Shown: positions 11,614 through 20,669 of the stretch, piece after piece | How the letters are laid out: each line of letters opens with the position of its first letter | Position numbering within the stretch: the first letter of the stretch is position 1 | From: Alitabrizicola rongguiensis | GTDB lineage: Bacteria; Pseudomonadota; Alphaproteobacteria; Rhodobacterales; Rhodobacteraceae | Assembly: GCF_021491355.1 (NCBI RefSeq) | Contig: NZ_JAKENF010000002.1 | Span: 1 to 64,000 of the forward strand | Reading direction: 5' to 3' | DNA: 64,000 nucleotides | Program-made: the position numbers and the translations under genes | Notes under the pieces: model-generated | Seen by the model: only the letters and a program-made list of their open reading frames with translations | What the model was told of the DNA's origin: nothing | Database searches by the model: none

Positions 11614-12702
11614 TCAGAACAGACTCAACTGATCCCCGGGCTTCGGCGGCAAGCGGAACAGGTCGGTCCGCATCGGCGGCAATTCCGCATCCAGCCCCAG
11701 CCGCTTTACCGCGATTTCGAACCGCCGCCCGATCAGGTTCGACCACAGCCCTTCGCCGCGCATCCGTCTGCCCCAGGCCGGATCGTAATCCTTGCCGCCA
11801 TGGGTCTCGCGCACCCGCGCCAGAACCTTGGCGGCGCGTGGGGCCGGCAACCGCGCTTCGAGCCATTCCTTGAACAGCGGCGCGACTTCGCCCGGCAGAC
11901 GCAGCATGATCCAGTTCGCGGCGACCGCGCCCGCCTCCTTCGCGGCTTCAAGGATCGGGTCGATCTCGGGGTCGGTCAGGCCGGGCACCACCGGCGCCAT
12001 CATCACCCGCACCGGAATACCGGCTTGCGATAAGCGGCGAATGGTTCCCAGCCTTCGGGCGGGAAGCGGAGCGCGGGGTTCCATCCGCCGGGACAGGTCG
12101 GGGTCGAGCGTGGTGACCGAGATCCCGACCCGTACCAACCCATCGGCCGCCATTGGCGCCAGGAGGTCGAGGTCGCGTTCGATCAGCGTGCCCTTGGTGA
12201 CGATGCCGACAGGATGACGATGCGCCGCCAGTACCTCGAGCACCTCGCGCATCACCCGGTACTCGGCCTCGATCGGCTGATAGGGGTCGGTATTGGTGCC
12301 AAGGGCAATGGTGGCGACTTTGTATCTCCGCGCTGCAAGCTCCCCCGCAAGCACCGCACCGATCCCCGGCCGTGCGATCAGCCTCGTCTCGAAGTCGAGC
12401 CCCGGCGAGAGGTTCAAGAAGGCATGGGTCGGGCGGGCGAAGCAGTAGATGCAGCCATGTTCGCAGCCGCGATAGGGATTGACGGACCGGTCGAAGGGCA
12501 GATCGGGCGACCGGTTGTAGGTCAACGCCGAACGCGGCTCCTCAAGCCGCACCTCGGTCCGGACAAGTCGCTCCTCTTCGTCGAGATCCCAACCGTCGTC
12601 CACGGCCTCGCGGCCGTGCGGCTCGAACCTCCCGGCGCGGTTCGAGCCTGCCCCGCGCGCTCGAAGTCTTTGTCCCGGAAGAAGTCCCTCGCCCTGTGTC
12701 AT
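11614..12702 (-). CDS. PA0069/Rv2578c-type radical SAM protein (SPL-like)
   Basis: This 362-aa radical SAM enzyme is related to spore photoproduct lyase. The [4Fe-4S] motif is CEHGCIYC (C-x3-C-x2-C, residues about 80-87), flanked by NPYRGCEHGCIYCFARPTH, typical of the PA0069 family. The reaction is not established; a DNA-repair role is suspected from the SPL relationship. The promoter supports this: a perfect GAAC-N7-GAAC LexA box lies 14 nt before the ATG. No Shine-Dalgarno site is visible and the predicted transcript start is almost at the ATG, so translation may be leaderless. Confidence 0.87.
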   Translation of the reverse strand: MTQGEGLLPGQRLRARGAGSNRAGRFEPHGREAVDDGWDLDEEERLVRTEVRLEEPRSALTYNRSPDLPFDRSVNPYRGCEHGCIYCFARPTHAFLNLSPGLDFETRLIARPGIGAVLAGELAARRYKVATIALGTNTDPYQPIEAEYRVMREVLEVLAAHRHPVGIVTKGTLIERDLDLLAPMAADGLVRVGISVTTLDPDLSRRMEPRAPLPARRLGTIRRLSQAGIPVRVMMAPVVPGLTDPEIDPILEAAKEAGAVAANWIMLRLPGEVAPLFKEWLEARLPAPRAAKVLARVRETHGGKDYDPAWGRRMRGEGLWSNLIGRRFEIAVKRLGLDAELPPMRTDLFRLPPKPGDQLSLF

Positions 12703-12739
12703 GCCGGCGAGAATAGAACATTACATGAACATTTGCCAA
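12703..12739 (-). promoter_or_regulatory. LexA-controlled promoter of the radical SAM gene
   Basis: On the minus strand, -35 TTGGCA (12734-12739) and -10 TATTCT (12710-12715) are 18 nt apart. The spacer contains a perfect GTTC-N7-GTTC SOS box (12716-12730), the alphaproteobacterial LexA site. Transcription would begin at about 12703, next to ATG 12702. Confidence 0.7.
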
Positions 12740-12883
12740 CCCACTTCCCGTTCAACCAACGCTCCGACCCCGCCCTGTCGGCTTTCGCTTGGCCCATGTC
12801 GCAATCCGGAAAGTCGGCCTTGCCCTTTGGTCGCATTCAGGCACCATAGCCTCGATGGGGCGCGCGAGCAGACGAGGGCAGTC

Positions 12884-13582
12884 ATGGCCGACGAAGACGA
12901 CATCATCCTTTCCGAGCTTTCCGACGACGAACTCGTCCTGCAGATGCACGACGACCTGTACGACGGTCTCAAAGAAGAGATCGAAGAGGGCGTCAACATC
13001 CTGCTCGAGCGCGGATGGGCCCCCTATGACGTGCTGACCAAGGCGCTCGTCGCCGGCATGACCATCGTCGGCGCCGACTTCCGTGACGGCATCCTGTTCG
13101 TGCCGGAAGTGCTGCTGGCCGCAAACGCGATGAAGGCGGGCATGGCGATCCTGAAGCCGCTTCTCGCCGAAACCGGTGCGCCGCGCATGGGCAAGATGGT
13201 GATCGGCACGGTGAAGGGCGACATCCACGACATCGGCAAGAACCTTGTCGCGATGATGATGGAAGGCGCCGGATTCGAGGTGCTGGACCTCGGCATCAAC
13301 AACTCGGTCGAGAAATACCTTGAGGCGCTGGAAAAAGAGCAGCCCGACATCCTCGGCATGTCGGCCCTTCTGACCACGACCATGCCCTACATGAAGGTCG
13401 TGATCGACACGATGAAGGAAAAGGGCCTGCGCGATGACTACATCGTTCTGGTCGGCGGCGCGCCGCTGAACGAGGAATTCGGCCGGGCGATCGGCGCCGA
13501 CGCCTATTGCCGTGACGCCGCCGTGGCGGTTGAGACAGCGAAGCAGTTCGTCGCTCGCAAGCATAACCAGTTGAACGGCTGA
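12884..13582 (+). CDS. Corrinoid protein (MtbC/MetH B12-domain type)
   Basis: This 232-aa methyl-carrier protein has a B12-binding helical cap (residues about 15-100) followed by a Rossmann B12 domain. The cobalt-ligating motif DIHDIGKN is present, with GMSALLTTTM (the SxL motif) and LVGGAPL. It would shuttle a methyl group to homocysteine, with the methyltransferase at 10511 as a likely partner and DUF1638 as a likely accessory. It has no fused catalytic or reactivation domain. ATG 12884 has a GAGGGCAG site. A strong terminator follows, so it is probably monocistronic. Confidence 0.9.
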   Translation: MADEDDIILSELSDDELVLQMHDDLYDGLKEEIEEGVNILLERGWAPYDVLTKALVAGMTIVGADFRDGILFVPEVLLAANAMKAGMAILKPLLAETGAPRMGKMVIGTVKGDIHDIGKNLVAMMMEGAGFEVLDLGINNSVEKYLEALEKEQPDILGMSALLTTTMPYMKVVIDTMKEKGLRDDYIVLVGGAPLNEEFGRAIGADAYCRDAAVAVETAKQFVARKHNQLNG

Positions 13583-13609
13583 CACGGTCAGGACCTTGCC
13601 TGCGACGAA

Positions 13610-13634
13610 GCCCCGGGCAAGGTCCGGGGCTTTT
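13610..13634 (+). terminator. Terminator after the corrinoid gene
   Basis: GCCCCGG (13610-13616) and CCGGGGC (13624-13630) form a stem followed by TTTT. Confidence 0.8.
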
Positions 13635-13698
13635 GCGTTTCGGCTCTGACTTGCCGGGGCCCTATCGCGTCCCCATTTGCCCAGAAGGAGGACCGAGC

Positions 13699-13854
13699 AT
13701 GCCATTCCGCCTCTTTGCCGCGATCCTGGCCGCCGTCATCGCCGCAGCCGGCCTGACCATTCTGGTCGCGCAGATGGTCAACCTGCCCCTTGCCATCCTC
13801 TCACTGGTCGCCATTGCCGCCGCCCTCGGCCTGCGCATGAGGCTGCGCGCATGA
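13699..13854 (+). CDS. 51-aa membrane protein upstream of DUF1638
   Basis: This tiny protein has two hydrophobic stretches (FAAILAAVIAAAGLTILVAQ and LPLAILSLVAIAAALGL) and a basic C-terminus (RMRLRA), so a two-helix membrane hairpin is likely. A near-perfect AGAAGGAGG site precedes ATG 13699. Its stop overlaps the ATG of the DUF1638 gene by 4 nt, so the two are translationally coupled. I do not recognise the family. It might anchor or assist the DUF1638 protein at the membrane. Confidence 0.75.
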   Translation: MPFRLFAAILAAVIAAAGLTILVAQMVNLPLAILSLVAIAAALGLRMRLRA

Positions 13855-14531
13855 CCGCAACGCTTCCCGAGGACCGGATTCTCGCCGAGGAAGGCCTGGC
13901 ACCGGAAGCGGCCGGACGGGTGCTGCTGATCGCCTGCGGCGCCCTGGCGCATGAGATCCTCGCCCTGAATCGCAAGAATGGCTGGCAACATATTGATCTG
14001 CAATGCCTTCCCGCGAATCTTCATCTCTGGCCGGACCGGATTCCCGATGCGGTCGAGGCGGCAGTCCACGAACACCGCGACCAGTACGATTCGATTTTCG
14101 TCGTCTATGCCGATTGCGGGACAGGGGGGCTCCTGAAGGCCCGCTGCGACACGCTTGGGGTGGAGATGGTCGAAGGTCCCCATTGCTATGCCTTCTTCGA
14201 AGGGGTCACGGCCTTTCTTGATCGAGCAGATACCGAGTTCGACGCCTTCTACCTGACCGATTTTCTGGTTCGCCAGTTTGATGCCTTCGTCTGGCGGCCA
14301 ATGGGCCTCGACCGCCATCCCGAGCTGAGGGACATGCTCTTTGGCAACTACAGCAAGCTCGTCTATCAGGCGCAGCTCGACGATGCCGCGCTGGATGCAA
14401 AGGCGCGCGACTGTGCCGAGCGCCTCGGTCTGTCCTACGAACGGCGTCTGACCGGCTACGGCGATCTTGAACCCGCCCTTGCGAAGGCCGCGCTAGGCGA
14501 GCGTTCTGCGAAACCGCCCGGGACCTTCTGA
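13851..14531 (+). CDS. DUF1638 protein
   Basis: This 226-aa DUF1638 protein contains LLIACGALAHEILAL, an early Cys, and VVYADCGTGG near residue 85. YAFFEGVTAFL and a mid-protein FYLTDFLVRQFDAFVWR also match the family. The family is often encoded next to corrinoid methyltransferases. As I recall, mutant-fitness data in a roseobacter linked it to split cobalamin methionine synthase; I could not check this. Here it follows the corrinoid gene by 270 nt and is coupled to a 51-aa membrane protein. A role in B12 reactivation or methyl transfer is inference. Confidence 0.82.
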   Translation: MTATLPEDRILAEEGLAPEAAGRVLLIACGALAHEILALNRKNGWQHIDLQCLPANLHLWPDRIPDAVEAAVHEHRDQYDSIFVVYADCGTGGLLKARCDTLGVEMVEGPHCYAFFEGVTAFLDRADTEFDAFYLTDFLVRQFDAFVWRPMGLDRHPELRDMLFGNYSKLVYQAQLDDAALDAKARDCAERLGLSYERRLTGYGDLEPALAKAALGERSAKPPGTF

Positions 14532-20640: not shown

Positions 20641-20669
20641 GATATGAACGAAAGATGAACATCGCGCAA
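20641..20669 (-). promoter_or_regulatory. LexA-controlled mmcB promoter
   Basis: On the minus strand, -35 TTGCGC (20664-20669) and -10 CATATC (20641-20646) are 17 nt apart. A perfect GTTC-N7-GTTC LexA box (20646-20660) fills the spacer. The transcript start would fall close to ATG 20633. Confidence 0.7.

Follow-up and report, generated by a model that had tools for sequence, protein, structure and literature searches.

A gene for a radical SAM protein of the PA0069 family lies on the minus strand of the window, the 64-kb stretch of Alitabrizicola rongguiensis DNA that was analysed, directly behind an apparent LexA box. The family is common in non-sporulating bacteria, and we know of no proven reaction for it; to our knowledge, spore photoproduct lyase (SPL) is the only radical SAM enzyme proven to reverse DNA damage directly. 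PA0069 and Rv2578c belong to the SOS regulons of Pseudomonas and mycobacteria, respectively, and our search of the open-access literature found no SOS paper on either. The locus raises the question of whether the gene is indeed under SOS control and, if so, whether DNA is what its enzyme would act on. The features that bear on this question are listed below.

12734–12739, minus strand: −35 hexamer TTGGCA (promoter scan and 44 aligned Rhodobacteraceae loci)
12716–12730, minus strand: LexA box GTTC-N7-GTTC, GTTCATGTAATGTTC (exact match; pattern shared by 155 of 177 alphaproteobacterial orthologue loci)
12710–12715, minus strand: −10 hexamer TATTCT, abutting the box (promoter scan and 44 aligned Rhodobacteraceae loci)
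12702–12703, minus strand: predicted transcription start, at the A of the ATG or one base earlier (from the −10 position and the kept −10/ATG distance)
11614–12702, minus strand: gene for the PA0069-family radical SAM protein, 362 amino acids, stop codon included (NF033668, PF04055)
12442–12465, minus strand: codons of CEHGCIYC with Cys80, Cys84, and Cys87 (Cys in 117 of 117 orthologues)
11617–11631, minus strand: codons of the C-terminal QLSLF, a putative β-clamp-binding motif (orthologue tails and the PMC9690074 consensus)

LexA box and promoter at the locus

Read on the minus strand from 12739 to 12700, the sequence is TTGGCA-AAT-GTTCATGTAATGTTC-TATTCT-CGCCGGC-ATG. The spacer between TTGGCA and TATTCT is 18 nt long and is filled by the LexA box, and TTGGCA-N18-TATTCT is the sole promoter-like match in 12500–13000 (mean 0.0, s.d. 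0.2 in shuffles). The original prediction had claimed a perfect GTTC-N7-GTTC box at 12716–12730 of the minus strand and its role as the spacer of this promoter; the match at that position is exact, and the promoter scan returned just that site.

The position of the start codon should be noted. The first ATG, GTG, or TTG behind the upstream in-frame stop codon is ATG 12702, and the next candidate start is 33 codons on. Three residues that precede this next candidate (R16, N21, and R25) are at least 97% conserved (n = 117), so that the start at ATG 12702 is well supported. GGAG, GAGG, AGGA, and AAGG are all absent at −15 to −4 of this ATG, which agrees with the claim that it has no Shine-Dalgarno (SD) site.

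GTTC-N7-GTTC occurs twice in the window against a mean of 1.69 in shuffles, which is chance level. Genome-wide, the pattern occurs 126 times against 96 for the reversed pattern, and boxes with an A/T-rich centre number 15 against 4 in the control. These counts are near those of the controls, and we rejected box frequency, in the window or the genome, as evidence. We take the significance of the box to derive from its position and conservation, not from its frequency.

The same genome encodes both LexA (TIGR00498, 192 bits, cut-off 110.95) and RecA (TIGR02012, 571.8 bits, cut-off 325.3). Two overlapping GAAC-N7-GAAC boxes precede lexA and one precedes recA, and boxes with an A/T-rich centre are also found before ruvB- and uvrA-like frames (named by eye). 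The second LexA box in the window, GTTCATCTTTCGTTC (20646–20660, minus strand), lies 12 nt before ATG 20633 of an mmcB-like gene (PF06319), a distance nearly equal to that at the radical SAM gene. At locus L053, the box GTTCCGGTAATGTTC (G000:C7:125679–125693) lies 6 nt before an oppositely oriented frame that resembles an MFS transporter by eye and is an unexpected candidate for SOS control.

Box and start geometry among relatives

The full set of loci comprised 60 from Rhodobacteraceae, 117 from other Alphaproteobacteria, and 40 from other proteobacterial classes; L015, a fragment with no motif, and L140, from the same genome as L162, were left out. The loci are mostly the top-scoring ones of each search and not a random sample, and 60 class-level loci come from lower in the ranking. 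A perfect GTTC-N7-GTTC is present upstream in 54 of the 60 Rhodobacteraceae loci and 101 of the 117 other alphaproteobacterial ones, and in 0 of the 40 from other classes. Control spacers of N4, N5, N6, N8, N9, and N10 are found in 4, 2, 0, 3, 2, and 1 of the 177 alphaproteobacterial loci, respectively, and the reversed pattern is found in 7. In a first set of 36 usable loci from the genus and the family, with the window's own locus counted, 35 had a perfect upstream box, and the exception (L018) has a box with one mismatch. When a slightly longer stretch is considered, the 177 loci divide into 156 with a perfect GTTC box, 5 with the other orientation, 12 with one mismatch, and 4 with nothing, where shuffled upstream regions contain a box with at most one mismatch 9% of the time. 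L085, counted as a miss, has its box farther upstream.

Conservation of the box argues that the match is real and beyond chance, and LexA control of the radical SAM gene, as originally claimed, is supported by the 155 of 177 loci against 0–4 for the control spacings. That the box is a chance match before a constitutive gene would suit the chance-level count in the window, but this explanation is rejected by the conservation and the spacing controls, and its probability is close to nil.

Four Rhodobacteraceae loci (L063, L064, L072, and L081) carry the flipped box, GAAC-N7-GAAC, 2–4 nt before the ATG, and account for four of the six misses in this family. The operator would have moved and flipped in these loci and would still cover the start. 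No match to the radical SAM gene was found in 75 of 295 family genomes, so the gene is dispensable in some members of the family.

The distance from the box to the ATG takes two registers. In Rhodobacteraceae, the ATG follows the box by 11–13 nt in 44 of 54 loci; in the other Alphaproteobacteria, it follows by 22–26 nt in 67 of 101. When the 44 Rhodobacteraceae loci are aligned on the box, the bases before it are conserved as T at −8 (43), T (31) or G (11) at −7, G at −6 (37), and C at −5 (32), and T-A-n-n-n-T follows directly after it (T 35, A 42, and last T 33). With these −35-like bases before it and the TAnnnT right after it, the box forms the promoter spacer in Rhodobacteraceae. In the other Alphaproteobacteria, the common form of the box is GTTCTTGATTTGTTC, whose centre contains a TTGATT-like −35 element, with TAnnnT about 17 bp downstream. 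On this reading of the aligned sequences, the centre of the box itself would supply the −35 element.

TAnnnT is found 3–15 nt before the ATG in 29 of the 44 Rhodobacteraceae loci and 45 of the 67 others, and the gap to the ATG is 5–7 nt for 27 and 42 hits, respectively. The controls gave 0 and 0 hits within the gene, and 4 and 4 at 100 nt upstream. In both registers, the −10 element and the ATG are about 6 nt apart. An SD-like 4-mer precedes the start in 1 of the 44 Rhodobacteraceae loci (0.5 in shuffles) and 13 of the 67 others (4.7 in shuffles), while the divergent corrinoid gene of the Rhodobacteraceae loci, taken for comparison, has one at 29 of 45 starts. Since 13 of 67 is above the shuffled value, some mRNAs of the other Alphaproteobacteria may have short leaders. 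We infer that a leaderless mRNA is conserved in Rhodobacteraceae and is usual but not universal in other Alphaproteobacteria, and that the operator is offset between the two groups by about one helical turn (~12 bp) with the −10/ATG geometry kept. The nearly leaderless promoter of the original prediction is supported, still as a prediction, by the ATG distance and the scarcity of SD-like 4-mers in Rhodobacteraceae. The comparison of box and spacing among relatives, proposed along with it, finds the box and the promoter layout kept in most orthologues.

The start site at the locus is itself predicted from promoter geometry, and a main promoter farther upstream would also account for the SD-like 4-mers at 13 of 67 starts in other Alphaproteobacteria; the mRNA would then have a leader, and LexA would act as a roadblock. 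This arrangement is quite improbable. Only one promoter-like site is present in 12500–13000, and TAnnnT keeps its 5–7 nt gap to the ATG in two registers. In addition, when Rhodobacteraceae loci are divided by box-to-ATG distance, an SD-like 4-mer is found in 3 of 5 at 18 nt or more versus 2 of 47 at 17 nt or less.

Neighbouring genes were considered as well. A divergent corrinoid-protein gene and a DUF1638 gene occupy 12883–14531 of the window. The corrinoid gene adjoins the radical SAM gene in 50 of the 60 Rhodobacteraceae loci, an arrangement that is stable but shows no evident functional connection. Among 57 longer loci from other Alphaproteobacteria (L083–L139), an RNase HII frame is located downstream in 41 and a CcrM-like DNA methylase frame, from a 15-locus cluster, in 12; one member of each of the two clusters was named by Pfam. 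RNase HII might be co-induced in the SOS response. A conserved operon was rejected as an explanation of function, the corrinoid gene giving no hint and the RNase HII and methylase frames being suggestive only.

Relatives outside the Alphaproteobacteria carry other boxes. CTGT-N8-ACAG, described in the available parts of PMC3323433 as the LexA motif of most beta- and gammaproteobacteria, is present in 28 of the 40 loci of other proteobacterial classes (0–1 for control spacers), and its perfect form is missing in 12. GAAC-N4-GTTC is present in 43 and, as a perfect match, missing in 37 of 80 actinobacterial relatives, which are the best 80 of 592 and come from named genomes; spacers of 1–3 and 5–8 occur in 0–2 of them. 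An earlier motif pattern missed 17 of 83 actinobacterial loci, and the count quoted here uses all 80. Among the named examples, a box is present at the loci of Paracoccus denitrificans (L241, where GTTCTCTAAATGTTC ends 12 nt ahead of the ATG), Sinorhizobium meliloti pSymB (L242), Aeromonas caviae (L243), Streptomyces sp. (L244), and Sphingomonas parapaucimobilis (L246), and absent from the Tsukamurella locus (L245). Because related enzymes appear to be controlled through three unrelated boxes, the use of the enzyme is probably tied to DNA damage.

Two further patterns were seen in loci of this comparison. L204, L208, L217, and L218, which have no CTGT box, have in common TGAGAC-N6-GGCGTA (GCGCTA in L217) just before the ATG, as judged by eye; it is possibly a different control site or a promoter site. 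L201 and L206 have TTAG-N6-TACTA upstream of the gene. This pattern fits the Xanthomonadales LexA motif and may be a fourth box type for the same gene.

SOS regulation of such a gene is not new in itself. In the parts of PMC3323433 covered, GTTC-N7-GTTC is named as the alphaproteobacterial LexA motif and LexA control is predicted for splB, a predicted photolyase, in alpha- and betaproteobacteria that include Paracoccus denitrificans and Rhodobacter sphaeroides. The LexA sites upstream of this SplB-like gene resemble ours; no leaderless layout or clamp tail is described in these parts. According to excerpts of PMC8565304, SOS regulons of Bacteroidetes include SplB (COG1533), and according to excerpts of PMC7739468, those of Gram-positives and Balneolaeota include a radical SAM protein; these radical SAM repair proteins are likewise under LexA with further box types. 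The former are likened here by description, COG1533 being broader than the PA0069 family. The LexA ChIP-seq table excerpted from PMC9380542 lists the mitomycin-induced radical SAM gene vnz_31145 of Streptomyces venezuelae, which is similar in being LexA-bound and damage-induced, differs in having the actinobacterial box type, and is likened by description and not by family assignment. SplB-like proteins are linked to ImuB-C in the available text of PMC3765255. The terms "radical SAM" and "photoproduct" are absent from the parts covered of PMC6473078, on LexA sites of Dinoroseobacter, and PMC1839093, on repair genes of Caulobacter. Relative to the portions of the open-access literature that were searched, the leaderless layout conserved in two registers is new.

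Family, cysteines, and predicted fold

The protein matches NF033668 over profile positions 1–348 of 348 with 479.6 bits (cut-off 360). Its score for the Rv2578c family (NF038135) is 243.8 bits, under the cut-off of 430, and membership in that family is not reached. The resemblance lies in this weaker match and in the actinobacterial relatives, retrieved with this protein as part of the query alignment, of which 43 of 80 (best 80 of 592) have SOS boxes; the differences are the sub-threshold score and the looser C-terminal motif of the actinobacterial proteins. Radical SAM mobile pair protein B is a weaker NCBIfam match. NCBIfam gave six hits at E 0.001, with no spore-lyase model among them. Three viral-contig relatives and ten phage records were also considered, none of which covers 80% of the query, and a phage or viral source was rejected. 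Separately, the Acidianus two-tailed viruses have a distant radical SAM relative with 27.2% identity over 51% of the query.

An AlphaFold2 model was obtained with a mean pLDDT of 79.1 and a pTM of 0.82. Its six best structural matches are all entries of SPL (VIA Z 16.7–17.2; 14.0 for the next family), and Foldseek against SPL gives TM values of up to 0.54 by query length. A search of the solved structures with the single protein was set aside, having no credible match (best E 0.32), and a profile search returned SPL weakly (E 0.0047). In the closest comparison, with SplB (PDB 4fhc and mutants), the two share the radical SAM fold (Z 17.2, rmsd 3.7, 270 aligned residues) at 10% identity. The overall fold of the model is that of SPL.

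Two sequence marks of SPL, however, are missing. The motif CEHGCIYC presumably holds the [4Fe-4S] cluster, as in radical SAM enzymes generally. Outside its three cysteines, no fourth conserved Cys column is found among the 117 orthologues, the best column having Cys in 26; in A2, a mostly actinobacterial alignment, residue 231 is Cys in 28 of 45. The residue following the third cluster Cys is Phe88, while SPL has Tyr98 at this position (wild-type and Y98F chains were compared). Cys140 and Tyr98 are catalytic in SPL, and Cys140 is essential. The solved lyase entries include three kinds with Cys140 mutations, plus Tyr98 mutants. Neither a conserved non-cluster Cys nor a counterpart of Tyr98 thus marks the window protein as a lyase of this type. 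Lacking a fourth conserved Cys and having Phe for Tyr98, it is probably an enzyme other than SPL, from which its clamp-type tail and SOS box also set it apart.

These residues bear on a rival explanation, an SOS-controlled lyase of the genuine spore-photoproduct type that would reverse the spore photoproduct (SP) or a different thymine dimer, in line with the "photoreactivation" view of PMC3323433. In its favour, no solved fold is closer than SPL, and this 2012 paper, as far as its text was available, gives the gene the name splB and describes it as a predicted photolyase. Against it stand the missing spore-lyase model among the NCBIfam hits, the conservation of just three cluster cysteines (26 of 117 for the next Cys column, versus Cys140 in SPL), and Phe88 in place of Tyr98. 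According to the excerpts of PMC4929162, moreover, SP is found exclusively in UV-irradiated spores. We regard such a lyase as unlikely.

C-terminal tail and proposed role

The last five residues of the window protein are QLSLF. In the parts of PMC9690074 covered, the bacterial β-clamp-binding motif is a C-terminal QL(S/D)LF, to which this pentapeptide fits; the consensus may vary more. The pattern Q[LMIVF]x[LMI][FLYWI] is found in the last 20 residues of 109 of the 117 full-length orthologues, at the very end in 96, and has no match at the other 40,966 positions of these proteins. The 96 terminal motifs all have Q at −5 and L at −2, and they end in F (71) or L (25); F at −14, P at −11, and G at −7 recur frequently as well. 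Among the 40 proteins of other proteobacterial classes, 21 fit the strict tail pattern and the remaining 19 have Q-x-x-L-F (18) or QMGLDF (1) at most one residue from the end, as judged by eye. Of the actinobacterial proteins (best 80 of 592), 63 of 80 end in Qxx[LMIF][FLMI]. The confidence of the model falls at the tail, with a mean pLDDT of 67 for residues 351–360 and 47 for the last two. This short motif, looser outside the Alphaproteobacteria, suggests that the QLSLF tail may bind the β clamp (DnaN). The original prediction did not report the tail; among the open-access papers listed, none links a bacterial radical SAM repair protein to a clamp motif.

The tail also bears on the possibility of genuine LexA control over an enzyme with a different target that becomes important after damage, such as RNA, the nucleotide pool, or a protein, with QLSLF not binding the clamp. 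Radical SAM enzymes are versatile, and we know of no DNA role for the weaker relative, radical SAM mobile pair protein B. The invariance of Q at −5 and L at −2 in the 96 orthologues ending in the motif, and the recurrence of the tail, in looser form, in classes with different LexA box types, argue against this possibility, which we consider rather unlikely. That SOS control is a hint of DNA-lesion repair, as originally proposed, gains from both the SOS boxes of three kinds and the clamp-type motif at the C terminus.

The best reading is a LexA-repressed, clamp-docked DNA-repair radical SAM enzyme, to which we assign a probability of roughly 0.68. It builds on the box, promoter layout, conservation, family, tail, and predicted fold found directly. 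We infer the steps from LexA binding and the start site to clamp binding and repair chemistry as follows. In undamaged cells, LexA on GTTC-N7-GTTC between the −35 and −10 elements would keep RNA polymerase off. Upon DNA damage, RecA would trigger the self-cleavage of LexA and the promoter would open. Transcription would start at the ATG or one base before it to give a leaderless mRNA. The product would be a radical SAM enzyme with the SPL fold, whose C-terminal QLSLF would dock it on the β sliding clamp and so bring it to replicating or repaired DNA. The 5′-deoxyadenosyl radical may then serve to reverse or otherwise process a lesion in DNA, perhaps a crosslink, but not the spore photoproduct.

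A parallel is found in Archaea. According to the excerpts of PMC4929162, archaeal SplB-like genes sometimes adjoin nreB, and a role in crosslink repair has been speculated; NreA, a relative of NreB, binds PCNA and acts in mitomycin repair. The two systems are alike in that gene order links the archaeal SplB-like genes to a family with a sliding-clamp-binding repair factor. They differ in the carrier of the clamp motif, which is NreA (less clearly NreB) in Archaea and the radical SAM protein itself here.

The analysis adds three points: a predicted leaderless architecture that takes two registers, a C-terminal clamp-type motif, and the absence of residues expected of SPL. On a broader view, PA0069/Rv2578c proteins would form an overlooked class of DNA-repair enzymes tethered to the replication clamp. 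Their SOS induction would depend on three or more unrelated LexA boxes in two phyla, their mRNAs would be leaderless in many Alphaproteobacteria, and they would reverse or unhook a DNA crosslink or another bulky lesion by a radical chemistry other than that of SPL. We offer this combined proposal tentatively, at somewhat short of even odds. The locus and its relatives provide a natural case in which the operator is shifted by about 12 bp between two groups while the geometry from the −10 element to the ATG is unchanged, and the conserved damage control and the clamp-type tail tell when and where the enzyme would act.
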